This document shows positions 3,193 to 26,235 of a stretch of DNA of 64,000 bases, in pieces. Below the pieces are notes generated by a model. That model saw only the letters and a list, made by a program, of their open reading frames with translations, was not told where the DNA came from and made no database searches. Numbering within the stretch: position 1 is the first letter of the stretch; each line of letters begins with the position of its first letter. Source of the DNA: Aedes albopictus (lineage: Eukaryota > Arthropoda > Insecta > Diptera > Culicidae); contig NC_085137.1 of NCBI RefSeq assembly GCF_035046485.1, positions 130,824,703-130,888,702 of the forward strand, given 5' to 3'. The position numbers and the translations under genes were made by a program.

Positions 3193-3417
3193 AACTATGT
3201 TCCCATAAATATTCGTAAAGCCTACTGAACTGGGCATTGGTGCTAGGAAACGAGAATTGTGTTCACAGATATATCAGAACATTGCTCGAATCTAGGTTCT
3301 AGTGAACGTAATCAAAATCATGGAAACGGGATCATAGTTCATGGTCCGTTCTCTCAGTAAGATTTTTTGACAGTGATTTTTGCATTTATTTTACTGATTA
3401 TTATATACTTATTACAG
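3193..3417. other. Spacer between two RTE copies
   Basis: AT-rich unannotated sequence between the RTE-A 3' end and the start of the RTE-B 5' leader. No gene is seen. Confidence 0.5.
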
Positions 3418-4190
3418 GCTGCAAAGCGGTGAGTCGATAAGGAGAGCGTCCAACATAGCTCTGGTCCTCACAAGTACCTACCTCATGCTTCCACGGGTCA
3501 AGCGATGACAAAGACCGCCAGCTAAGAGTTGTGTGCTTAGCTGGTAGTGCAGCCTCGGCACTGTTGTGCTTCTGACTTCATCAAAATTGAGGAGGTACGA
3601 CTCGAGCGTCTGTTCGCCAAGGAGGTGCGGCTCAAACAGCGTCTGTTCTGGCATCCAGCGGCTGAGTAAGAAATGCTGCATCACGCCCAGTTAGATCCAA
3701 GATGGTAACCCCATCAGCGTGGTCGTCCCAGTGTTGGTTGGGACGTTAAACAGAACTGGCACGATGGCCCTCCGGCGAGACAGGAGTGTTGGCGTAGGCC
3801 CAATAAGTCACCCTTTAAAATCCCCATTGCGAAAAACCTAGGAGAAAATACGACTCGATACAATCGGCAAAGACCCACGCGACGAAATAAGGACTACGAT
3901 TGGAAACTTGGAACATGGAATTACAAGTCACTAGGTTTCACAGGATGTGACAGGATAATCTACCCCGCAACTTCGACATCGTGGCGTTGCAGGAACTTTG
4001 TTCGGCTGGAAAGAAACTGTGGCACCACCAATGAACTGGGAACAGGATTTATAGTGTTGGGCAAGATGCGGCATCGTGTGATCGGGTGGCAGCCGATCAA
4101 CGCAAGGATGTGCATGTTAAGAGTTAAGGGCCGTTTCTTCAACTACAGCATCATCAACGCCCACTGCCTACGCGAAGGGAGACCTGATGA
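3418..4190 (+). pseudogene. RTE-B LINE, 5' leader and start of endonuclease ORF
   Basis: The 5' half of an RTE-clade LINE. A GC-rich leader is followed by endonuclease text: DYDWKLGTWN at about 3895-3920, FDIVALQELC near 3973-4001, and IINAHCLREGRPDD ending at 4190. Stops and frameshifts interrupt the frame. At 4190 the homology stops inside the endonuclease and resumes, exactly in register, at 9557, so this is one element split by the 4191-9528 insertion. A 28-base target duplication (4163-4190 = 9529-9556) marks the break. The family is related to, but clearly diverged from, RTE-A at 20.7-23.9 kb. Confidence 0.8.
4163..4190. repeat. 28-bp target-site duplication, left copy
   Basis: The 28 bases here (starting ACTGCCTACGCG, ending ACCTGATGA) are identical to 9529-9556. 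Deleting 4191-9556 restores a continuous RTE-B endonuclease reading INAHCLREGRPDDEKEAFY. This shows that 4191-9528 arrived as one insertion into RTE-B with a long target-site duplication, as retroelements make. Confidence 0.9.
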
Positions 4191-4550
4191 GCATGAGCAT
4201 GAGCATGAGATGACCGTACAATTCGTAGTTGCTACTCCGTTACTGATTAGAACAGTCAATATTGCACAGGGAACCAAAAGGAAGGGGCCTGGGTTTAGCT
4301 TTCCATCCTCAATGTGCAATTTCGAAAATTCAAAACTATTTTGTCAGTACCGGCGCCGGCCACGTCCTTACGGTCATCGAGGAAGGGAAGGAATGTTGGT
4401 GTGACATCCGTTGCTACTAGAGACCGTGTGTACCTCCGCATCCCCACGGTTGTCACAGGAAGGAAGTTTGTTGGTGGGAGTGGGAGGGGATAGATAGTTA
4501 CATAGATCTGGATTCACATTGGTAAGTGATGTGATCTATGCGACCCATAA
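4191..4550 (-). repeat. Probable LINE 3'UTR (minus strand) with hexamer tail
   Basis: The first about 105 bases match 25154-25257 almost exactly. Read on the minus strand it ends in a short CTCATG repeat, like the tandem tails of some LINEs. The rest to about 4550 is GC-richer than the surroundings and non-coding. How far the 3'UTR reaches is not known. Confidence 0.5.
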
Positions 4551-4560
4551 TATGATTTAG

Positions 4561-4606
4561 TCTTCCGACAGCCGGCTGTCGGAAGAATACAATAATTTTA
4601 TTGTAT
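4561..4606. repeat. Two adjacent palindromes
   Basis: 4561-4586 is a perfect 26-nt palindrome with half-site TCTTCCGACAGCC. It is followed at once by a near-perfect AT palindrome (4587-4606, half-site ATACAATAA). Stem-loops this strong suggest a transposon end or RNA structure inside the insertion. Confidence 0.6.
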
Positions 4607-5790
4607 GTTTGTATATTGAATTTTATTATATACCGGGTATGGATAATTTTTAAACCACACTTATGTCGGACCAACTCGCATTAAAGCACGTTCTAAGCTA
4701 ATCGTTTCTTAGTAAAAATTAAACTGTAAGTATTTCAGTTCAATGCCAATGATGGAAAACCGAAACACGCGCCATAGCTTTACGAGACAACGGAAGCTTA
4801 AAAAATGCCAGTGAATATTGCTTAACGATCGTTGTTTATAAGTTTCACCTATGTTCTTGTATTACTCTTTTCTCGCGTTCCCGTGTTAATAAGATTGCGG
4901 ATAATTAAACCATTGTACATATTTATTACCGCGAATGCTCGCGACGCGTAATATAAATTGAAAATGTAAACTAAGGAATTATTTAATTTTTGCTTAAGAA
5001 AAAACTATACCAAAAAATAAAGTTATCGTACGTGTTCGAACAGACGCGAAATTATGAAACTTGGCACGAATAAATCGACGCGGACAACGCGGTCTACTTG
5101 TCACTGAATCGTACGGTAATCTTGACGTACGGTAATCTTGACGTTTCGTCGATTTGATCGCTGATTGTCTGCTTGTAAATCTGAAATAGAAAATAGTATT
5201 AGATGGTGATACGTTCTCTACAGTTATGTTTTTGTAAACTATGTTATTCATGTATATGATAAATTTACCATCATCCCTCTGAAACAAAAGGTATAATAAG
5301 CGGTGGAAAAAAAATATTAAAAAAAAATATATATATATATATAGAGAAAAAAATAACCAGAAACCAAATCCTGATCCTGGAATGTTCCTGCATTTGAATT
5401 AACCAGGCTGGCAAATAGCAAGATCAAAATGTGATATGGTAGATCTTACACCGTAACGCATCATTCCAAGGTGATCTACCCACGTTTCGGGTACCACCTG
5501 AGCAGGTGCACCCAACATGGGCATCCGCCGATGTGGCTAAGTCAACTTCACATCAAATAATCCAACTCCCGGTACACGATGAGATACGTATAGTATCTAA
5601 TCCTATGCAAAAATTCAAAACATTTGGTATGAAATTGACTCAGTTCTAGGGGCAAGCGTCCTAAAAAGGAACACCTGCCCAAGCGGCACAAGACCCTATT
5701 GCAGTTTAGTCTTGGGTATCGTTTATATTTTACTACGGCCAATGTGTTCATGTATACATTTGTATTAGTTGTCACTCATTCTCTTTTTAC
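4607..5790. other. Non-coding interior of the 5.3-kb insertion
   Basis: AT-rich, no recognisable domain on either strand. It contains a 17-base tandem duplication around 5107-5143 and a TA dinucleotide run at about 5325-5343. In particular, no C-terminal reverse-transcriptase text was found on the minus strand, which the simplest twin-priming model would allow. Confidence 0.5.
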
Positions 5791-5805
5791 TTATGCTTAA
5801 TACAA

Positions 5806-5840
5806 TATATAAGCGAACTGTTAGTCGGTCGCTAGTATAT
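5806..5840 (+). promoter_or_regulatory. TATA-like box upstream of the OTU gene
   Basis: TATATAAG (5806-5813) lies about 190 bases before the first in-frame ATG (6003) and about 25-30 bases before TTAGTCGGTC, a loose initiator match. It is offered only as a candidate start site. Confidence 0.2.
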
Positions 5841-6002
5841 AATGCTTATACGCTATCTAAGTACGATCAGAATTTCACTACTACTACTACTTCAAACAAA
5901 CAAGCCTATTGGAGCGTCAGCGTCACGTGATTTCAAGTTTGAGATTTTTTTCCGCGTTACAACTCGTGGTTGCTGTCGTTCAATTTATTTTGTGAAGCCC
6001 TC

Positions 6003-7418
6003 ATGATGGAATGTATTGTGGATAATCGCGGAGATCGTTATTGGTTGCTAAAGATTCCCGGCGACGGAGATTGCTTGTTCGGTTCTATCGTGCATCAGGT
6101 CTACGGGGTCACCCCCAAACACCCTATGTTCAAGACGCATAGCCATCAGGCACGCCTAACTGCGGTGGATGAGATACGGAGCCACCTTCCCTATTACTAC
6201 GACCAAATTGCTTGCCACGCTAACGACGAGTTTCCTGCGGACTGTTCTATTGAAGACAAAGTTGAGTGGTACCTTGCGAAGTTGGAGAGTTCTGGATTCT
6301 GGGGTGGAGAAGAATCTATCGCGGCGCTGGCGAATCGCTATCAAGTAATATTTACGATTCACCAGGATGGATCAAAAATCGAATTCAGACCAGCAAATTC
6401 CGAAACCGAGCTCCTACCTCGCTACAACCTGTTCTACAGAAACCTCGTTTCGGGCACTAAAAGACGTGTGAATCACGGGCTGCCCGCCAGACGTACCCAC
6501 TATGACAGTGTGCTTTGTGTACGCGAGGGGAGAGTCAACGAGAATGGCATTATTGGAGGTTCAGTTCAGGATCTGCCTAGCTTCAGCTATCCAATTCGGG
6601 TTAAATGGTTCGAAAACAGTCACGTTGCCCTTGTGAGGTCCGTAATTCATCAACTTACTGGATTAGATCCTTCCCAAGAAACAGTGAATGTTTTCTGCGG
6701 TCTAATTGCTGATGAGATTGACCATCGTTCGTCGTCTTTTCTGCCTTCCTGTGGTGTGCAATGTGAATCTCCGGAGGAAATATCGAATTTCTCCTGCCGT
6801 TTACGGGAAGGATGTCACGATGGTGGCTTTGTGACTCTGGTTGTGTTGGCGGACCTGCTCGACTTAACTGTATTTTTACATTCTACTCAGCAAGACAGTT
6901 CGATACGTTTTGAGCCCTCAGTCAGCCGTCATCGATCAGTAATAACGATTCACATAGTGGAGGACTTGAGTCACGAGTTGCCGTCCTACGGGAGTATTTC
7001 TTCTGTTCGTAACCATGCAGCCCTGCGCTCCCATGCGCCGGATCCAACAATGATCGTTCAGGAGGTTATTAGGAAGGAACTGACCACTACTCAAGTTACT
7101 GTACCTGTGGATGTTACGGTTGATCCGAAACCAGGTTTACGATTTGCTTCTTTGAACGTGAACGGATGTCGAAAAGCGGAGAAGCGGGAGTGTATAGATG
7201 CCCTGTTGTTGGCCCAAGGAGTACACATTGCGGTGTTGCAGGAAGTGAACTTGGATTGTATGTATGCCGTAACAACTAACTATCGTTGGTATATGGGCGC
7301 TTCATCCAAAAGCCAGAAACGAGGTTTGGCGATTTTACTCCGCCAAGGTCTTGATGTTTCAATCAATCGAAGCATTCCTTCTGGGCACAACATCCAGCAT
7401 GCTGAGATTTTTTATCAG
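6003..7418 (+). CDS. OTU protease-endonuclease-RT gene, exon 1
   Basis: The frame opens after an in-frame stop at 5940; the first ATG is 6003. Residues 1-175 are an OTU-type cysteine protease (deubiquitinase fold): GDGDC with Asp21 and Cys24, a W100-GGEESIAALA helix region, and His166 in HYDSV, so the catalytic residues look intact. Residues about 200-345 repeat the same layout in weaker form, with alanine 209 in the Cys24 position: a probable dead second OTU domain. From about residue 381 an APE-type endonuclease begins (FASLNVNG, then AVLQEV). The exon ends CAG|GTATGT; the frame otherwise meets a stop at 7503-7505. OTU proteins cleave ubiquitin; a role here (protecting the retroelement protein from degradation) is inference. 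Confidence 0.8.
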
Positions 7419-7471
7419 GTATGTCAAAATAATGTTAGCGCTAGATATCTTTCTAATCACGGCTGTTTCAG
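7419..7471 (+). other. Predicted 53-nt spliceosomal intron 1
   Basis: Donor CAG|GTATGT, a branch-like TCTAATC, and acceptor TGTTTCAG|G. Removing exactly these 53 bases (phase 0) joins EIFYQ to EGKSFRTINVVNVHGP, restoring the endonuclease through its conserved N-x-HGP motif. Left in, the frame is lost. Size and signals are normal for an insect minimal intron. Confidence 0.85.
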
Positions 7472-9008
7472 GAGGGAAAGTCTTTCCGCACAATTAATGT
7501 TGTGAATGTCCATGGACCAAATCGGGATGCTGATCGTTTTTTTTCTGATTTGGGTACGGTTATTGGTAAACTGGCTGACACTCGAAATCTTATGGTAGCA
7601 GGGGACTTCAACAGCCATCTATCATGGAAAAACTTGTCCGTGGAGGAATCACGGCTTATTGGGAGATTTGCTGGGCACGATCAGTTCAATGCAAACGGGT
7701 TGCAGATGAGGATGTTCCTTAGTCTAAACAGTCTTGCGGTGCGGTCTACACAGTCCAACTCTAACGAAAGTTTCCGATGGACTTGGTCTAATGGGAAATC
7801 TAAGAGTCAAGTGGACCATTTTTTGACAGCGCTCCATTCTACAATGTATTTGAGGCGCTTGAAGGCTTTGTCGCTGCCAGACCTTTCCACTGATCACAAG
7901 CTACTACTGTGTAGTATTGTGGAAAACCATTCAAGGTCGCTGCCTCCTGCTTCTACTAAAAAGGTCGAGCCTAGACAGAAAGCTCATCTTGAGCCTGCCA
8001 TGTTGAAGTTGCCTGATGTTCAGAAGAAGTATCAGGAGCATCTCAGTCTAAAAATTCTAGAACCCCGTTCTACAGAGAGCGTAGAACAAAACTGGGACGC
8101 TCTTAAGTGTAAGATGAAGGATTCGGCCGCTGCCGTTTTAGTAAAACCGTCGTTCATACCACCCAACCGACAATGCCGTAAAGCCTTCGCGGAAGTGAAG
8201 AGGTTTTTGTTTTGGGCAAATCGATCTGCTCAACCGAAGTGGAGGCACAAGCTAGCAGAGGCTAGAGAGTTGTTACAGAAGAACATACGCGAATACGAGG
8301 AGAAAGAGATTGAGAACTTTTTCGAGAACCTTCATCAGTATCCAACCGGCGAACGAATAAATCGTACTTTTCGTTACTTGAAGAGGTACAAAAAGAAAAA
8401 ATCTAACCGGACACAGTTCTCCACCATTCGTTTAAGCGATTGGCTTCTTGATGACAGTGGCTCATCTTCCCTTCCTGATGCGTTGCCTGAGTTGGGAGAA
8501 ATATCCCTGCCTGATGCTCCCACCCTACGTGAGATCCAGGAGCTTGTTAGTCGGATGAAGAGCGGAAAGACGGCTGGCGTAGATTGTCTCAGCGCGGAGT
8601 TCTATAAGTATTCTGACGATCGCACTATAGAAGAGCTACATGCGCTTTTGGTTCAAGTGTGGACCGAAAATGTACTTCCAGCGGAATGGAAGCATGTGCT
8701 GGTGGTACCGATCCCCAAGGTGAAAAGTCCCAAGACCGTTAATGACTATCGTCGTATTTGTTTGAGTTGTTCTGCGTATAAGGTCTACGCAGCATGGATT
8801 TTAAGCAAACTGCAGCGTACGATTGGCCCTTTAGGATATCATCAGGCAGCCTTCTTGCCTGAGAGGTCAACAATGGACCACTTGCATGTCCTACAGCGGA
8901 TTCTTCAGGAGCGTTGGAATGGCGGTGAGACCACTGTGTTGATGTCCCTTGACATCGAAAAGGCCTTCGATTGCGTGTCGTTGGAAGCTCTTCCGGCTAT
9001 ATTACGAG
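7472..9008 (+). CDS. OTU protease-endonuclease-RT gene, exon 2
   Basis: Continues the APE endonuclease: NVHGP, the GDFNSH metal/catalytic motif near 7600-7617, a VDHFL segment, and STDHKLL at about 7888-7908, so all main catalytic motifs are present. A basic linker follows, then the reverse transcriptase: KSGKTAGVD, LPAEWKHVLVVPIPK, DYRRICL, YHQAAFLPERST, and MSLDIEKAFD with the first catalytic aspartate. It ends mid-domain at a split codon (CGA G|GT). No stop or frameshift interrupts it. The clade is not assigned; the RT text is unlike the RTE copies around it. Confidence 0.8.
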
Positions 9009-9061
9009 GTTTGTCTATTGATTGTCTTATGTATGTGTAGTGCAAACCTTATTTGTTTCAG
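9009..9061 (+). other. Predicted 53-nt spliceosomal intron 2
   Basis: Donor GAG|GTTTGT and acceptor TTTGTTTCAG|G. Excision (phase 1) turns LPAILRG plus a premature TAG into LPAILRGKGVPVLFINRIL, the normal spacing between RT motif A and motif B. It has the same length, 53 nt, as intron 1. Confidence 0.85.
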
Positions 9062-9528
9062 GCAAGGGTGTACCTGTGCTTTTCATAAACCGCATTCTGG
9101 AGTGCTTGAGGGAGGAGCAACAGCAGGTACTATGGGGAGGACAACTATCTCGACCATTCAAACGTATGCGCGGGATCAAACAAGGTTGCCCATTATCGCC
9201 CTATTTGTTTAACTTGATCATGGAAGCGGTACTGGAGTCTGTGGCTGACGAAGTGGAAGGCCTTCGTTTAAATCAGGATGGCCGAATAACACTTCCGCTT
9301 GTGCTAGCCTTTGCCGATGATCTCATCATCATAGTGGAGAAAATTGAAGATCTAGAGCTCATCCTGCGGAAACTTAAGGAATACCTGGCTTATGTAGGGC
9401 TGAAGTTAAACGAGGCGAAATGCAAAGTGTTGGTTCGGGAGCCTAACGGCGAAGCAGTGGACGAAGTTGAGTTAGAAGGCCGTGTGTACAAGACTACCGA
9501 GCCGCTTCGGTATCTTGGGATATACCTT
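9062..9528 (+). CDS. OTU protease-endonuclease-RT gene, exon 3 (3'-truncated)
   Basis: Encodes RT motif B (GIKQGCPLSPYLFN), motif C with the catalytic pair (LAFADDLIII), and LKLNEAKCKVLV up to LRYLGIYL. Coding stops at 9528, exactly at the right-hand target duplication; the frame then reads into RTE-B sequence. The thumb and C-terminal region of a complete LINE protein are therefore absent from this copy. Exons 1-3 together encode 1140 codons without an interruption, apart from this missing end. Confidence 0.8.
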
Positions 9529-9556
9529 ACTGCCTACGCGAAGGGAGACCTGATGA
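9529..9556. repeat. 28-bp target-site duplication, right copy
   Basis: Identical to 4163-4190. Here the preceding bases are the truncated RT gene and the following bases (CGAGAAAGAAGCG) continue RTE-B. Confidence 0.9.
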
Positions 9557-12100
9557 CGAGAAAGAAGCGTTCTACGCACAGTTAGAGCAAACATACGATG
9601 GTTGCTCGTCGCGTGGCGTGAAAATCGTCGTCGGTGACATGAACGCGCAGGTAGGAAGGGAGGAAATGTACAGACAGGTAATCGGGCGAAACAGCCTGCA
9701 CGCCGTATCGAATGATAACGGTCTGTGATGCGTAAACTTTGCAGCCTCCCGTGGTATGGTAGTCCAAAGCACCTTCTTCCCCCGCAAAGATATCCACAAA
9801 GCCACCTGGTGATCACCCGGCGATCAAACAGAAAACCAAATCGACCACGTTCTAATCGACGGTGAATTCTTCTCGGAAATAATCAATGTACGCACATACC
9901 ACAGTGTGAATATAGATTCGGATCACTACTTAATAGCTGTATGCATGCGCTCAAAACTTTCGACTGTTATTACCAAGCGTCGAAGGAACATCGAGCAGCT
10001 GCGTAACGTAGAAGAGGCTCAAAACTACGCGCAGCATCTACTAGTGGCCCTGCCAACGGAAGAGCAGCTTGGCGCAGCTACACTTGAAGATGGCTGGAGG
10101 GACATCCGATCCGCCATACATAGGTAGTAAATACCTCAGCTGCAGCACTAGGCTTCACGACTCCGAATCACAGAAACGACTGGTACATCGGCAAATGCGA
10201 TCAGTTGAAAAACGAGAAGAATGCAGCATGGGCGAGAATGCTGCAACACCGTACGAGAGCGAATGAGGCACGTTACAGACAGGCGCGGAACAGGCAGAAC
10301 TCAGTCATTCGGAGGAAGAAGCGCCAGCAGGAAGAACGAGATCGCGAAGCGATGGAAGACACACCGCGCTAAGGACACACGAAATTTCTACGAGAAGCTG
10401 AACCGCTCGCGCAGAGGCTTTGTGCCACAAGCCGACATGTGCCGAGACAATCACGGGAATCTTCTCACGAGCGAGCCTGAGGCGGTCGAGAGGTGGCGGC
10501 AGCATTACGATGAGCTCCTCAATGACGACGTTGCAAAGCACCGAATGTGGAGCGGTAACAGATCTAGGAGCACGTGTGCAGGACGAAAGATTTCCGACCC
10601 CTAACCTCCAAGAGATTGAGAGGGGGGATTGGCCGATTGCAAAGCAACAAAGCCGCTGGAGCAGATCAACTACCAAGCGAGTTACTAATATACGGTGGAG
10701 AAGCACTGATGAGAGCACTACACTGGGTCATTACCAAGATTTGGGAGGAGGAAGTATTACCGGAGGAATGGATGGAAGGTATCGTGTGTCCCATCCACAA
10801 AAAAGGTGACAAGTTGGATTGCGGAAACTATTGCGCGATCACACTACTGAGTGCTGCCTACAAGATACTCTATCAAATTTTTTGCCGAAGTTTATCACCG
10901 ATTGCAAGAGAGTTCGTGGGGCAATATTGGGCTAGATTCATGGGTAAACGTGCAACAACGGACCAGATGTTCGCCATCCACCAGGTGTTGCAGAAATGCC
11001 GCGAATACAACGTGCCCACACATCACTTGTTCATCGATTTTAAATCGGCGTATGATACAATCGATCGAGAACAGCTATGGCAGATTATGCACGAATACGG
11101 ATTCCCGGATAAACTGATATGATTTATCAAGGCGACGATTGATCGAATGATGTGCGTAGTTCGAGTATCAGAGACACTCTCGAGTCCCATCGAATCTCGC
11201 AGAGGGCTACAACAAGGTGGTGGTCTTTCGTGCTTGCTGTTCAACATTACTTTTGAGGATGTTTTAAGGAGAGCGGGGATGAACACGAGTAGAACGATTT
11301 TCACGATGTCCGTTCAGTTGCTTGGTTTCGCTGATGATATTGATATTATTGCTCGTAAATTTGAGACGATGGCGGAAGTGTATATCCGACTAAAGAGTGA
11401 AGCCAGGCGAATCGGATTAGTCATTAATGTGTCGAAGACAAAGTACATGATGGCAAAGGGCCCCAGGGAGGAATCACCGCGCCCGCCACCCCGAATTCAT
11501 ATCGACGGTGATAAAATCGAGGCGGTTGAAGAACTCGTGTACTTGGGCTCACTGGTGACCGCCGAAAACGACACCAGCAGAGAAATTCAGAGGCGCATTG
11601 TGGCAGGAAATCGTGCCTACTTTGGACTCCGCAGAACTCTACGATCGAATAAAGTTCGCCGTAACACGAAGTTAACCTTCTACAAAACGTTGATTAGACC
11701 GGTCGTCCTCTATGGGCACGAAACATGGACCCTACGTGCAGAGGACCAACGCGCCCTTGGAGTTTTCGAACGGAAGGTGTTACGTACCATCTACGGCGGA
11801 GTGCAGATGGAAGACGGGACTTGGAGAAGGCGAATGAACCACGAGCTGCATCAGCTGCTAAGAGAACCAACCATCGTCCATACCGCGAAAATCGAGAGGC
11901 TACGGTGGACGGGTCACGTCATCAGGATGTTGGATAGCAACCCGACTAAAATGGTTCTCGAGAGTTATCCGACCGGTACAAGAAGACGTGGTGCGCAGCG
12001 ATCTGCGGACCCTAAGCAGAGTGCGGAACTGGAAACAAACAGGAATGGAGACGGCTACCATGTACAGCAGAGGCCACCCCGGCCTTAGCCTGATCGGTAT
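9557..12100 (+). pseudogene. RTE-B LINE, remainder (endonuclease to C-terminus)
   Basis: Resumes the endonuclease begun at 3.4 kb: EKEAFYAQLE, VVGDMNAQVGRE, NQIDHVLIDGEFF and IDSDHYLIAV. The linker (about 9950-10600) has stops and frameshifts, for example in-frame TGA at 9726-9728 and TAG after SAIHR near 10126. Reverse transcriptase follows: KAAGADQLPSELL, EEWMEGIVCPIHKKGD, FIDFKSAYDT, GLQQGGGLSCLLFN, LGFADDIDII (aspartates kept), then the C-terminal RRNTKLTFYKTLIRP and RLRWTGHVIRM text to a stop near 12088. A short 3' tail ends at about 12100 (CTGATCGGTA). The element is dead but largely complete. Confidence 0.85.
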
Positions 12101-13740
12101 CTATTCAGTGCGGATGTGGTAAACCGTCTTGCGCGGGACCTTCAATGGAGCAATGGAAGGATACATGTGTCAATTGTTGAGTTCGTTGCATGCTTTTGTT
12201 TTATTGTGAAGGCTAAGTAGAATGACTTCAACGCCTTGTTGTGACAACCATGGTTTTGTTTATACTTATGGCATTTTCATTGCACAGTTTATCGCAACAA
12301 GTGTTGGAGTGAAGTCCTAATGTGTGAATGAAATCGTACTGCTTACTTTGGTACAGGGTATATAGGGTATCGGGATGCTTCGTTGGCATAGTCCCCTCGT
12401 TCGGCCTATCTTAACGTTAACCAAAAACTCAAACAAACACGCCGAACTGGATATCGGAAAAGCTTTGCGCCAAACAACTGTAACATTTCGTTTCAATTTT
12501 AGCACTTTGGAGTATTAAAATTGTATGAAAATGTCACGTTGTTTAGCTTTTGTAGACGCCATGATTCTTCGGCTTAGTGGGTAGTCTATACACATGATCA
12601 TAAATGGCATGATTCTGGAAGATTTCGAATTGCCTTTTCAATAACTGAACATTTGATGCGACGGGTCAAGATGCTATTTTGAATTTGTATGTTTGTTTTT
12701 AACGAATAATAACTTTTTTACAAATTACATGTGGGCCGAATATTGAGGACATTTTTTTCACTATGTACCCAAATCTTGGCCCATCAGTAAAGTGACGTAA
12801 AAAACACCGATAAAGTGACGCCAACAACATAGCTTGCGTAAGAACCAGAAAGAACGAACAGAAAGATAGATTTTGTGTGCGGTGACTGTAAAAATATAAC
12901 ACAATTATCGGGTTGCATTGTTTTCGTTACTAAAAAAGAAAGAACTATAGTTTAAGTGATTTATTTATAGTTTTTTTTGCAAATTTGGCTCCGAAAATGT
13001 AATTTGAAAGTATGATTGGTGAACAAACAGAGATAATACCTCAGCAGAAATATTGAAAAAATGAGATAATAAGTGGTTCTAGTGCATGGAAAGCAATAGG
13101 CCAACGTTGTATCCACTAATAGGCCAATTGTTGTACCATAGACCAACGTTGCATACCATCACATCGAATCTTTTCAACTTAGTTAAGTAAATTCTTGAGT
13201 ATTTACGTTAGTTTACTTCCAATTGGTGAAACATGCATTGGCTAGAGTGCGTAATAGGGTCAACATATTATTTCTAGTGCTATTAATTCATGAGTTATAT
13301 TCAAAATTGTTAAGGCGGTTTGCAAATTAGGCCAAGGAATGATCCATATACCCTAGTTCAGCCGAGGAGGGATATTTTCTTCTCGTTTCAGAGAGCGAAC
13401 AATGGCGCTTAAGCCTAGGATTTTGAGCCAGGACAAAAGGGTCAAATTCCTATGTCCCATCCCAGGAAGAGAAGATCCAATGGAGTGACATTAACTTTCT
13501 TAGCACCGTCACTCCCAACGTTGATGCTGCAAATGTCATATAGATTCTATATGGAGCGGCTGACGAGATATCGCCGATCCAAGATACACTTCAATTGCAT
13601 TCAATGACGCTGCACAGTAGGGCCGCTTTAATGCGTGTAATACATTTCCGATGTGCTGCACGCATCAATAATGACAAGAAAAATGATAGAAGTAGTCGAT
13701 TCTATTATTTTCCAGGATTCTTTCAATGAAAGGCTGTGTA
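12101..13740. other. No recognisable gene
   Basis: A short open frame continues past the RTE-B end (to about 12222) but shows no known motif. 13080-13160 has three loosely repeated CCAACGTTGTA-type words. 13340-13740 is less AT-rich and looks repeat-derived but is not assigned. Confidence 0.4.
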
Positions 13741-20903: not shown

Positions 20904-23897
20904 AAAAGACTAGCACCGGAAAATCAACAACAGAAGAATGCGAACCGATACCAATGGCGACGACCACAGCGACGAAAAGGGACTTGCGATTGGAAGCTCG
21001 GTACGTGGAACTGCAGATCTCTCAACTTCATCGGGAGCACCCGCATACTCGCCGATATACTGAAGGACCGCGGGTTCGGAATCGTAGCGCTGCAGGAGGT
21101 GTGTTGGACAGGATCTATGCTGCGAACGTTTAGAGGTAATCATACCATCTACCAGAGTTGCGGCAACACACGTGAGCTGGGAACAGATTTTACAGTGATG
21201 GGCGACATGCAGAGGCGCGTGATCGGTTGGTGGCCGATCGACGAAAGAATGTGCAGGTTGAGGATCAAGGGCCGATTCTTCAACATTAGCATAATAAACG
21301 TGCACATCCCTCACTCCGGAAGCACTGATGATGACAAAGACGCATTTTACGCGCAGCTCGAACGCGAGTACGATCGCTGCCCAAGCCACGACGTCAAGAT
21401 CATCATAGGGGATCTAAACGCTCAGGTAGGCCAGGAGGAGGAATTCAGACCGACGATTAGAAAGTTCAGCGCCCACCAGCTGACGAACGAAAATGGCCTA
21501 CGCCTCATCGATTTCGCCGCCTCCAAGAACATGGCCATTCGTAGCACCTTCTTCCAGCACAGCCTCCCGTATCGTTACACCTGGAGATCACCACAACAAA
21601 CGGAATCGCAAATCGACCACGTTCTGATTGATGGACGGCACTTCTCCGACATTATCGACGTCAGGACCTATCGTGGCGCTAATATCGACTCCGATCACTA
21701 CCTGGTGATGGTTAAACTGCGCCCAAAACTCTCCGTTATTAACAACGTACATTACCGGCGGCCGCCCCGGTACGATCTAGAGCGATTGAAGCAACCGGAT
21801 GTCGCCACCGCATACGCGTTGAATCTCGAGGCAGCGTTGCCGGACGAGGGTGTGCTCGATGTGGCCCCTCTAGAGGACTGCTGGAGTACAGTGAAAGCAG
21901 CCATCAACAACGCAGCCGAGAGCACTATCGGGTACGTAGAACGGAGTCGACGAAACGATTGGTTCGACGAGGAGTGCAGAGCGGTTCTGGTGGAGAAGGA
22001 TGCAGCGCGGGCGGTAATGCAGCAGCATGGAACCCGACAGAATGTGGAGCGATACAGACAGAAGCGGAAGCAGCAGACCCGTCTCTTCCGGGAGAAAAAG
22101 CGCCGCCTGGAAGAAGCGGAGTGCGAGGAAATGGAACTGCTGTGCCGTTCACAGGAAACACGCAAATTCTACCAGAAGCTCAACGCATCCCGCAAAGGCT
22201 ACGTGCCGCAAGCCGAAATATGCAGGGATAAGGAAGGGAGCCTCCTGACGGACAAACGTGCGGTGATCGAAAGGTGGAAGCAGCATTTCGACGAGCACCT
22301 GAATGGCGAAGAGAATGTAGGCACGGGGGACCAAGGCAGCGGAGGAAATGACTATGTTGGTGCAGCAGAGGACGGGAACGAACCAACTCCCACGCTGAGG
22401 GAAGTTAAGGATGCCATCCACCAGCTCAAAAACAACAAAGCGGCTGGTAAGGACGGTATCGCAGCAGAACTCATCAAGATGGGCCCGGAAAAGTTGGCCA
22501 CCTGTCTGCACCAGTTAGTAGTCAAGATCTGGGAAACCGAACAGCTACCGGAGGAGTGGAAGGAAGGGATAATCTGTCCCATCCACAAGAAAGGCGACAA
22601 GTTAATGTGTGAGAACTTTCGAGCGATCACCATTTTGAATGTCGCCTACAAAGTGCTATCCCAGATCATCTTCCGTCGTCTTTCACCTAAAGTAAATGAG
22701 TTCGTGGGACGTTATCAAGCCGGTTTCATCGACGGCCGGTCGACAACGGACCAGATCTTCACCGTACGGCAAATCCTCCAGAAATGCCGTGAATACCAGG
22801 TCCCAACGCATCACCTGTTCATCGACTTCAAAGCGGCATACGACAGTACAGAGCTATGGAAAATTATGGACGAGAACAGCTTTCCCGGGAAGCTGACTAG
22901 ACTGATAAGAGCAACGATGGACGGTGTGCAGAACAGCGTAAGGATTTCGGGTGAGCTATCCAGTTCATTTGAATCTCGACGGGGACTACGACAAGGTGAT
23001 GGACTTTCCTGCCTACTATTCAACATCGCCCTGGAAGGTGTGATGCAACGAGCCGGGCTCAACAGCCGGGGTACGATCTTCACGAAATCCAGCCAATTTG
23101 TCTGTTTTGCGGATGACATGGATATTATTGCCAGAACATTTGGAACGGTGGCAGAACAGTACACCCGCCTGAAACGTGAAGCAGCAAAGGTCGGACTGGT
23201 GGTGAATGCGGCTAAGACAAAGTACATGCTGGTAGGTGGGACTGAGCGAGACAGGACAAGCCTTGGCAGCAATGTTACGATAGACGGGGATACTTTCGAG
23301 GTGGTAGAAGAATTCGTCTACCTCGGTTCCTTGCTAACGGCTGACAATAACGTGAGCCGTGAAATACGAAGGCGCATAATCTGTGGAAGTCGTGCCTACT
23401 ATGGGCTCCAGAAGAAACTGCGGTCAAAAAAGATTCACCCCCGCACCAAATGTACCATGTACGAGACGTTAATAAGACCGGTGGTTCTCTACGGACACGA
23501 GACATTGACGATGCTCGAGGAGGACCTGCAAGCACTCGGAGTTTTCGAGCGACGGGTGCTAAGGACGATCTTCGGCGGTGTGCAGGAGAACGGTGTGTGG
23601 CGGAGAAGGATGAACCACGAGCTCGCTGCACTTTACGGCGAACACAGTATCCAGAAAGTGGCCAAAGCTGGAAGGATACGGTGGGCAGGGCATGTTGCAA
23701 GAATGCCGGACAACAACCCTACAAAGTTGGTGTTTGCTAACCATCCGGTTGGTACAAGAAAGCGTGGAGCGCAGAGAGCACGATGGGCGGACCAGGTGGA
23801 GCGTGATCTGGCGAGTGTTGGGCGTGACCGAGGATGGAGAGCTGCAGCTGCAAATCGAGTACTATGGCGGCAAATTGTTGATTCAGTATTATCATGA
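20904..23897 (+). CDS. RTE-A endonuclease-reverse transcriptase
   Basis: An RTE-clade (JAM1-like) LINE protein, open for 997 codons from the stop at 20901-20903. Order: APE endonuclease with LGTWNCRSLN (about residue 31), GIVALQEV, GDLNAQVG, QIDHVLIDGRHF and IDSDHYLVM; a coiled, basic linker; reverse transcriptase with AAGKDGIAAEL, CPIHKKGD, FIDFKAAYDS, GLRQGDGLSCLLFN and FADDMDII; C-terminal RTE domain with LIRPVVLYGHE, RIRWAGHVARM and a final VLWRQIVDSV. Catalytic residues are intact. The first ATG (21117) lies downstream of the first two endonuclease motifs, so initiation must be non-AUG or the true start has been lost. It acts by nicking target DNA and priming cDNA synthesis on its own RNA. 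A truncated copy lies at 2302-3192. Confidence 0.88.
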   Translation, partial: KRLAPENQQQKNANRYQWRRPQRRKGTCDWKLGTWNCRSLNFIGSTRILADILKDRGFGIVALQEVCWTGSMLRTFRGNHTIYQSCGNTRELGTDFTVMGDMQRRVIGWWPIDERMCRLRIKGRFFNISIINVHIPHSGSTDDDKDAFYAQLEREYDRCPSHDVKIIIGDLNAQVGQEEEFRPTIRKFSAHQLTNENGLRLIDFAASKNMAIRSTFFQHSLPYRYTWRSPQQTESQIDHVLIDGRHFSDIIDVRTYRGANIDSDHYLVMVKLRPKLSVINNVHYRRPPRYDLERLKQPDVATAYALNLEAALPDEGVLDVAPLEDCWSTVKAAINNAAESTIGYVERSRRNDWFDEECRAVLVEKDAARAVMQQHGTRQNVERYRQKRKQQTRLFREKKRRLEEAECEEMELLCRSQETRKFYQKLNASRKGYVPQAEICRDKEGSLLTDKRAVIERWKQHFDEHLNGEENVGTGDQGSGGNDYVGAAEDGNEPTPTLREVKDAIHQLKNNKAAGKDGIAAELIKMGPEKLATCLHQLVVKIWETEQLPEEWKEGIICPIHKKGDKLMCENFRAITILNVAYKVLSQIIFRRLSPKVNEFVGRYQAGFIDGRSTTDQIFTVRQILQKCREYQVPTHHLFIDFKAAYDSTELWKIMDENSFPGKLTRLIRATMDGVQNSVRISGELSSSFESRRGLRQGDGLSCLLFNIALEGVMQRAGLNSRGTIFTKSSQFVCFADDMDIIARTFGTVAEQYTRLKREAAKVGLVVNAAKTKYMLVGGTERDRTSLGSNVTIDGDTFEVVEEFVYLGSLLTADNNVSREIRRRIICGSRAYYGLQKKLRSKKIHPRTKCTMYETLIRPVVLYGHETLTMLEEDLQALGVFERRVLRTIFGGVQENGVWRRRMNHELAALYGEHSIQKVAKAGRIRWAGHVARMPDNNPTKLVFANHPVGTRKRGAQRARWADQVERDLASVGRDRGWRAAAANRVLWRQIVDSVLS

Positions 23898-24302: not shown

Positions 24303-25153
24303 TGCACCCAAATCGAATATGATCTGGTAGATGGCCGACACTTCTCGGGTGTCATTGATGCTAGAACTTTAAGGGGTCCCAGCATCCACGAAGATTACAA
24401 TCTCGTAGTTAGCAAGACTCGATCTTGGTTATCATCCACGTCGGACACGATGAATCGGCGATCGTAGCGTTTCAACATGCAGTGTTTTTTCAGCATATGG
24501 TACACTTTGAGGAAGTCTATCCACGGAGCGATGAGTACGGCAGCGCGGGAGGTGATGGGCACTGCTCAAAGACCACCCATAGGATGAGAAGTGCCAGAGG
24601 GTGACGGTAAGCCGATTGCTGATGTCGGGGACCCTGCAGTGCAGGAAGCAATATATGGAAAAAAGACCATGAAGAAAATGTGATTGCACAGGTACAAGAG
24701 CATACACAAGAGAGTATGAGATATGCGGAGGTTTTAAGAAACTGTCCATGGCGTGCGGAGAAAAAATAACGCCTTCTACCGTCATATGGAACAACCGTGA
24801 TGGAAACTTTCTGACAGACAAAGCAATGGTGGCTGCCTGGAGGAGAGAGCACTTCGAGGAATAGGTAAAAATCGGGAATACGACAAACATTTGAATCGAT
24901 GACGCCGAACAGGTTGTGGAAAGTCCAACGCTAGACGAGGTCAAGGCAGCCAAAAGAGGGCTGAAGAAAAGCAAGGCTGCTGGGAACTGCTGGCCGAGCT
25001 TCTCGACCACGATAATGAGCAGCTGTATCAACTACACCGTAATATGATGAATGATAATATGGGAAGAGAAAGAACTGCCTGTGCTTGCTAGTTGGTTGGA
25101 TAATCTCATTTGCTCTCTGTAAAGAAAGAGCATCGACTGAAATTCACGAATAC

Positions 25154-25257
25154 ATGAGCATGAGCATGAGATGACCGTACAATTCGTAGTTGCTACTCCG
25201 TTACTGACCAGAACAGTCAACATTGCACAGGGAACCAAAAGGATGGGGCCTGGGTGT
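25154..25257 (-). mobile_element. 104-bp retroinsertion with 22-bp target duplication
   Basis: Flanked by a 22-base direct repeat (25132-25153 = 25258-25279, starting ATCGACTGAAATTC). The insert begins with an ATGAGC run and matches 4191-4296, the left end of the large OTU-gene insertion, with few differences. Read on the minus strand it is a severely 5'-truncated LINE, or SINE, 3' end with a CTCATG tail. Confidence 0.8.
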
Positions 25258-25517
25258 ATCGACTGAAATTCACGAATACAGAGAAGAAACACATCTCAAA
25301 GCAGCGTATAAAACTTTGACCGGGATTCTGTCGAACAGACTGATGCCGATTGAGAAGTCCTTCGTCGACGAATATCAGGCGGGTTTTCGTGATGTTTATT
25401 GATTTTAAGGTGGCGTACGATTCAGTGAAGAAAAACGAGTTATTGCAGATTATGATCGAACATGGTTTTCCGGCGAAACTGATTAGACTGATTATAAACT
25501 AATTTCTAGTACTCTAG

Positions 25518-25660
25518 TACTATGTACTTACTTTCAGTCCTGGGCACCCACTGTGGTGCAGAGGGCCGAATTGAAAGATTTCCATCTTGGGCGATTGCCA
25601 GCCATCGCCTTGACCTGTGGCCAGGTCAAATTTCTGTCGATTTGCTTGATTTCGTTGTTG
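25518..25660 (-). mobile_element. 143-bp 5'-truncated LINE 3' end
   Basis: Flanked by TAGTACTCTAG at 25507-25517 and 25661-25671. On the minus strand it encodes the end of an RTE-type C-terminus (KQIDRNLTWPQVKAM, then GNRPRWKSF) and a stop, followed by about 25 bases. It splits the plus-strand LINE between the RT and C-terminal domains. Confidence 0.75.
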
Positions 25661-26235
25661 TAGTACTCTAGAGACGTGCGATAACGATGTAACCCGTGAA
25701 GTGAGAAGACGGATTGCGGCTGTGAATCGTTCCTTTTTCGGTTTGCGAAAACAGTTAAAGTCCCGTAGGCGGCAAACGAAGACAAAACTCGTGTTGTACA
25801 AGACTCTGATTCTTCCGTTCGCTTTATACGACCAGTAATCGTAAACGCTAATAGGAGCTGATCGGAGCCTTTGGAGTCGTAGTCGTAGAACGTTAAGTGT
25901 TGGGAACAATTCTTGGCGGTAAACTGGCAAGACGGCATTTGGAGGCTTCGCATAAACTACGGATTTTATAAAGTATATGTATAAAGAGACGCATATTGTG
26001 AAACAAATCAAACAAGGCAGGCTGCGGTGGGCTGGGCACGTAGCTCGTATGTCAGAGGAACGACAAGATAAAACAATATTCAGTAAAGAACCAGGAAGGA
26101 GTCTTCGGCTTCGTGGAAGGCCGCAAGCACGTTGCAGTTGAGGAGATCTAAGAACTTTAAACGTTCTAGGCGACTGGAAGCGATGGGTGCAGGACCGAGG
26201 CCAGTGGAAGTAAACTCACCGCTACGAGTTGTAGC

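Follow-up and report, generated by a model that had tools for sequence, protein, structure and literature searches.

The window analysed here, 64,000 nucleotides of the Aedes albopictus genome, contains what is probably a LINE-type retroelement in truncated form. Its three-intron gene would be expressed from one strand, and the RNA that is reverse-transcribed would come from the other. Judged by sequence comparison, two segments of 53 nt within this copy are spliceosomal introns of a gene for an OTU protease, an APE endonuclease and a reverse transcriptase (RT). Since retroelements pass through processed RNA in their cycle, one expects their introns to be lost. An APE-type LINE gene with introns at fixed positions in at least three mobile subfamilies breaks this expectation, and the polarity of the insertions supplies a simple and testable reason for intron retention.

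An earlier note on this DNA had placed the two introns at 7419-7471 and 9009-9061, and these coordinates proved exact: each segment runs from GT to AG over 53 nt, and excising both restores a stop-free frame of 1,140 codons from 6003 to 9528. Exon 1 (6003..7418, + strand, as are all parts of the gene) encodes an OTU cysteine protease (Pfam PF02338, residues 19-124, E 4.2e-8 in a Pfam profile search) and the start of the APE endonuclease. It is followed by intron 1 (7419..7471, 53 nt, phase 0, CAG/GTATGT...TTTCAG/G) and by exon 2 (7472..9008), which encodes the remainder of the endonuclease, a linker and the first half of the RT. Intron 2 (9009..9061, 53 nt, phase 1, GAG/GTTTGT...TTTCAG/G) leads into exon 3 (9062..9528), which ends within the RT domain; the frame stops at 9528 because this position is the edge of an insertion. 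The gene order is thus OTU protease, then APE endonuclease split by intron 1, then RT split by intron 2. The spliced RT region matches PF00078 with 115.4 bits and the spliced endonuclease matches PF03372 with 48.3 bits, and L1 endonuclease structures match the latter as well. In the gene parts scanned, namely the window exons, no GIY-YIG domain was matched by Pfam, Exo_endo_phos being found instead, and neither the window exons nor 6579-7130 gave a Pfam match to Rep/helicase. The OTU domain of exon 1 and the insertion edge at 9528 had both been missed in the earlier note.

Restoration of the frame alone proves little, since 10 GT..AG pairs of 40-120 nt cure the frame at one break and 11 do so at the other. 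The proposed pairs are the top-scoring ones at their breaks (14.63 for intron 1 and 15.22 for intron 2, with splice-site matrices written from consensus values and not fitted), and when we introduced artificial breaks into intact coding sequence, none of 3,000 had a pair of 45-75 nt as good. Ranked against all + strand pairs of that length in the window (6,157), the proposed pairs come 10th and 6th. On the - strand, 14 of 5,662 such pairs score at least 14.63, so that strong pairs unrelated to the gene do exist in the window. We also tried Pfam scoring as a test of the spliced against the retained reading and rejected it because it does not discriminate. The endonuclease reaches 48.3 bits when spliced, 50.3 when the intron is retained and 50.1 after a 56-nt excision, a lean of about 2 bits against splicing, and the RT scores 115.4 bits spliced against 112.1-114.4 retained. 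This is contrasted by the best-matching solved L1 endonuclease, which favours splicing (40.3 bits spliced, 33.2 retained). In the alignments listed with R2 and L1 proteins, the spliced RT runs across junction 2 with no gap.

The decisive evidence on the introns comes from comparison with relatives at other loci of the same genome (1.344 Gb), which we sought with DNA and protein queries. A search with gene DNA from 7300-9200, a query that contains no tail sequence, gave 13 matches, three of which (L003, L007 and L008) stop at 9010, just past the GT of intron 2. The intron-bearing relatives, whose exon 2 protein is 49-97% identical to that of the window, have GT..AG introns at the same codons, and these introns differ from one another in sequence and length. 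We tabulated 19 introns of 53-146 nt at nine loci (the window, C1:174.57, C1:300.99, C3:341.98, C3:85.6, C1:59.49, C2:271.4 and C2:326.7 Mb, and contig C910), and 18 of the 19 are GT..AG; in the remaining one, intron 2 at C1:174.57 Mb, the AG has been lost by mutation. Outside this table stand intron 2 at C1:59.49 and C2:271.4 Mb (observed, and longer), intron 1 at C2:326.7 Mb, and fragments elsewhere. A third intron of 58-67 nt lies close to the C terminus at four loci, and the window copy ends upstream of it. The conservation of intron positions in diverged relatives bears out the claim that spliceosomal introns occur in an APE-type LINE gene. As a refutation, the earlier note had named other copies whose frame stays intact across these positions; among the group I junctions read, none is intron-less or has the segment absent from an intact frame (C2:39.18 and C2:327.08 Mb, also of group I, lie outside the set read). 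That the two segments are local insertions or frame damage, as the near-equal Pfam scores and the 2-bit lean of the endonuclease would allow, is a reading we give almost no weight given GT..AG at the same positions in relatives down to 49-52% identity and the null of 3,000 artificial breaks.

The copy at C1:300.99 Mb has an uninterrupted gene of 1,342 codons whose introns, in matching codons, measure 67, 146 and 58 nt, and its protein is 52, 69 and 77% identical to that of the window in exons 1-3. Compared with the window, pN/pS is 0.286/0.770 (0.37), 0.187/0.895 (0.21) and 0.119/0.942 (0.13) in exons 1-3, with synonymous sites near saturation. By these substitution ratios the gene is under constraint, that is, purifying selection. 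A search with the exon 2 protein gave 86 scored matches out of 40,076 first-look candidates. These include distant relatives at 28-40% identity with long unbroken frames, and in about 25 rows, with identities of 30-40%, the open frame has at least 1,328 codons, enough to span both intron positions. From frame length, these distant relatives look intron-less. Contig C910, however, has both introns and yet a 1,034-codon frame that runs through one of them, so that a long open frame alone is compatible with an intron. Six matches at 38-39% identity lie in frames of exactly 1,328 codons (C2:107854382, C3:171266758, C2:347934100, C354:33310, C1:114694619 and C3:98451860), and the one inspected, L052, begins with an OTU motif. 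Three more distant relatives, at 35% identity, have unbroken frames of about 1,680 codons (C3:164079290, C2:391407854 and C2:295620818). Searches of viral contigs and of bacterial and archaeal genomes gave no relatives.

We next consider the unit in which the gene lies. An exact direct repeat of 28 bp stands at 4163..4190, in the body of an older endonuclease-RT LINE, and again at 9529..9556, and the flanks (3709-4190 and 9529 onward), which are themselves this older LINE, align to adjoining parts of a LINE at 20904-23897. The exact repeat and the adjoining alignment of the flanks together identify 4191..9528 as an insertion of 5,338 bp, which comprises a tail, an upstream region and the OTU-endonuclease-RT gene, truncated on the gene's 3' side; at its right edge there is a 5-bp microhomology, ACTGC. 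The tail (4191..4545), (GAGCAT)n followed by about 350 bp, would correspond, in minus-strand orientation, to the 3' end of the RNA that is copied. At C1:174.57 Mb we found a copy that is 98% identical to and colinear with the window unit, in which the gene continues past the position equivalent to 9528 to its natural end.

Altogether we resolved 11 units with exact target-site duplications (TSDs) of 16-28 bp that touch the tail. For 10 of the 11, all but the window's, the TSD was sought next to the tail, which makes the position of the tail at the edge partly a matter of construction; the window's 28-bp TSD was found independently of the tail. What is not by construction is the existence of exact 16-28-bp repeats and the position of the second copy. 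Five units bear the gene (the window, C1:174.57, C1:300.99, C3:341.98 and C3:85.6 Mb), and the others are L030, L031, L032, the short units B1 (1,201 bp) and B2 (1,245 bp), and a 103-bp unit. At the four gene-bearing loci other than the window, all of which came from the tail-free gene query, the tail stands upstream of the gene and the TSDs are of 22-28 bp, with the left copy touching the tail. Because the TSD-flanked gene units span three subfamilies, we conclude that the gene moves. Gene-bearing copies are few. The tail was absent upstream of the gene at C2:326.7 Mb (14 kb examined) and C2:271.4 Mb (4.6 kb examined), and at C1:59.49 Mb we found only a decayed tail from which the repeat is missing. 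No TSD of at least 10 bp was found for 12 of 17 tail copies; the pieces were only 1.2 kb for seven of these 12, and 2.3 kb for L033-L037.

In contrast to the tail edge, the far edges of the units vary, lying at 103 bp, at 476 bp, at 1.2 kb and, in others, beyond the gene, and the eleven far edges have no sequence in common. Within the window's subfamily the far edge falls at window-equivalent 6668 in L030 (in the OTU exon), at 9528 in the window (in the RT) and past the gene at C1:174.57 Mb, so that the gene's 3' part is missing from the window copy and from L030. The alignments of L034 and L036 stop at 5815 and 5945. In a second subfamily the far edges lie past the stop codon, by 340 bp at C3:85.6 Mb and by 1.15 kb at C3:341.98 Mb, and these two copies are 90.7-99.2% alike by block. 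A constant edge upstream of the gene and a variable opposite edge suggest the 3'/5' pattern of LINE insertions with the orientation of the gene reversed.

Several of these units have features of their own. L031 has an AT-rich TSD, and its last 93 bp belong to another repeat. The unit at C1:300.99 Mb sits within a satellite, which makes its 24-bp repeat less independent as evidence. The TSD of the unit at C1:174.57 Mb (L009, L010) was found with 30 kb searched; the length of this unit, 17.5 kb, is due to insertions of 247 bp and 2,541 bp and perhaps one more. The first is at a TTAA and has inverted ends, the second has ATTA duplications, and both are absent from the window copy; the possible further insertion lies between a pair of 96% repeats that encloses a satellite. 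On the 3' side of the gene the same unit contains 4.7 copies of a 110-bp tandem repeat as well as a 23-bp satellite that extends over nearly 5 kb.

The tail also belongs to a shorter and more numerous sequence. A search with the tail gave 2,822 first-look candidates, of which 40 were scored, all at 94-100% identity, and a search with 5093-5492 gave 1,627, of which 40 were scored at 82-100%; such first-look numbers are not copy numbers. With 5560-5959 there were 1,952 first-look candidates, and only six loci (the window included) were 96-100% alike among those scored, the remaining matches being to a MITE-like repeat at about 5571-5698. We fetched 17 of the 40 scored tail copies, and in all of them the alignment to the element covers 438 bp or more, counted from the tail. 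The short units B1 and B2, which belong to one subfamily and are 90% alike, align up to 5491/5492, so that 4191..5492 (minus strand) is the stretch equivalent to the short family, and nine tails of the B1/B2 subfamily are 96-99% like that of L032. From these alignments, a family of about 1.2 kb with many copies has the same tail as the element, and long gene-carrying units are few. Searched with ARAGORN, the two short units, the corresponding stretch of the window and L051 gave no tRNA-like head.

Taken together, the data are best read as two RNAs from opposite strands. The sense strand would give a spliced mRNA encoding the OTU-endonuclease-RT protein. A separate antisense RNA would terminate in a (TCATGC)n tail, which lies ahead of the point where the gene begins; we take the copied RNA to be antisense because the constant tail edge is on the gene's 5' side. 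Target-primed reverse transcription would begin at this tail, proceed toward the gene's 3' end and halt at varying points, and introns would persist in the copies because the antisense RNA offers no usable splice signals. Both this RNA and the short family with the same tail would be copied by the element's own enzyme, and the uninterrupted gene at C1:300.99 Mb makes a recent source of enzyme plausible. Sequence past the gene's 3' end is not common to the subfamilies, and because of this difference no common antisense promoter was found. The earlier note had offered two options, that the genomic RNA escapes splicing or that the gene is a domesticated host gene. The copied RNA does appear not to be the mRNA, which is a third option beside these. 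Of the first option, a copied RNA that is unspliced stands, but the insertion polarity indicates an antisense RNA and not a sense RNA evading the spliceosome. The second may hold for a source locus, as the copy at C1:300.99 Mb combines an intact frame with purifying selection, but a fixed, non-mobile position was not found, and five gene units with TSDs in three subfamilies speak against it. The fullest form of the proposal is an autonomous ambisense LINE that makes its own enzyme from the spliced gene, transposes via RNA of the other strand and supports the large short family; its chances we put at only a little short of even.

The main alternative is that the short tail-bearing sequence is a retroposon mobilised by another LINE, and that the gene, an intron-bearing gene of the host or of an old element, is a hitchhiker that was co-mobilised by 5' transduction whenever a long antisense transcript was copied. 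The abundance of the short family beside the scarcity of the gene, the different sequence beyond the gene in different subfamilies and the single locus that retains an intact, constrained gene would all fit this, and the numerous related OTU-endonuclease-RT frames could be the helpers. However, three subfamilies whose proteins diverge by about 22-54%, exon for exon, all have the tail joined to the gene, and the units in them have their own TSDs. All 17 tail copies read align to the element from the tail onward, and in one distant relative the tail is missing both from 901 bp counted from the stop onward and from 1,801 bp of upstream sequence. On balance we regard passive carriage of the gene as unlikely, though it is the strongest competitor to antisense copying of a mobile gene. 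A second alternative keeps the usual LINE polarity, with a sense genomic RNA that evades splicing and is copied with its introns. Unspliced sense RNA would keep introns just as well, and an A7 run stands four bases from the far edge at C1:300.99 Mb. The edge that is constant and has the tandem repeat stands 5' of the gene, however, whereas the window copy and L030 have lost the 3' part of the gene, and the eleven far edges have no common sequence, which makes this reading improbable. Twin priming, a single ordinary LINE insertion with its 5' half inverted, was our first reading of the opposite orientations of tail and gene, to which the 28-bp duplication would also conform, and it has next to no probability since the C1:174.57 Mb copy, which rules it out, is colinear through the entire unit and beyond and three more loci have the same arrangement.

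The element thus read, with an antisense template, resembles several known systems in part. Like APE-type LINEs it has an APE endonuclease and an RT in one protein, TSDs of variable length, a short tandem repeat at the constant edge and varying losses at the other. It differs in having three introns, since APE-type LINEs are usually intron-free, in having an OTU protease at its N terminus, and in having the tail upstream of the gene, whereas in APE-type LINEs the constant edge is the coding 3' end and truncation is at the coding 5' end. Like LINE/SINE pairs it has a short many-copy family with one end in common with a longer coding element, but here the common end lies upstream of the gene and ARAGORN gave no tRNA-like head in two short units. 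Dualen has a cysteine protease and, as its second endonuclease, a restriction-like one. It is named, with two endonucleases, in PMC4640811. Penelope-like elements likewise retain introns in their copies, but their endonuclease is GIY-YIG and not APE, and they have pLTR-like terminal repeats, of which none was noticed in passing here. An antisense template is proposed for Penelope-like elements and fits intron retention, an unspliced sense template also being possible (PMC3846280). Helentrons have an APE endonuclease akin to the LINE enzyme and additional open reading frames like OTU proteases, in a passage that names no RT (PMC4067079). Unlike the element here, which has an RT, long TSDs and no match to Rep/helicase in its exons, Helentrons have Rep/helicase. 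Among the matches listed in the open-licence literature, titles and abstract openings mention no introns in an APE-type LINE, no OTU-bearing APE LINE and no antisense-copied LINE. If the antisense reading is right, the coding strand is separate from the copied strand and the enzyme must find its template in trans via the tail. This would add a second case to Penelope, for which an antisense template was suggested. If the distant relatives are intron-less, the introns may postdate the switch of template strand.

We also note several features of the window around the gene. Next to the tail, and retained in the short units, 4547-4601 is self-complementary (85.7% over 56 nt) and possibly forms an RNA hairpin. 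The short MITE-like repeat (about 130 bp, 5571..5698) is matched at lower identity at many sites, and some of these matches lie next to each other on opposite strands. An Rfam search over 3300-12500 with E up to 5 gave four matches, all under the curated thresholds; among these, a match of 5535-5643 on the minus strand to MIR7993 (30 bits, E 0.03, threshold 100) is probably due to chance. The LINE at 20904-23897 has an uninterrupted endonuclease-RT frame of 997 codons and is a relative of the older LINE broken at 4190/9529. The 103-bp unit, a copy of the tail end only, lies at 25155..25257 with its own 23-bp TSD (25132-25154 and 25258-25280), and it breaks a decayed RTE-like LINE that we recognised by eye on the + strand at 24400-26200.
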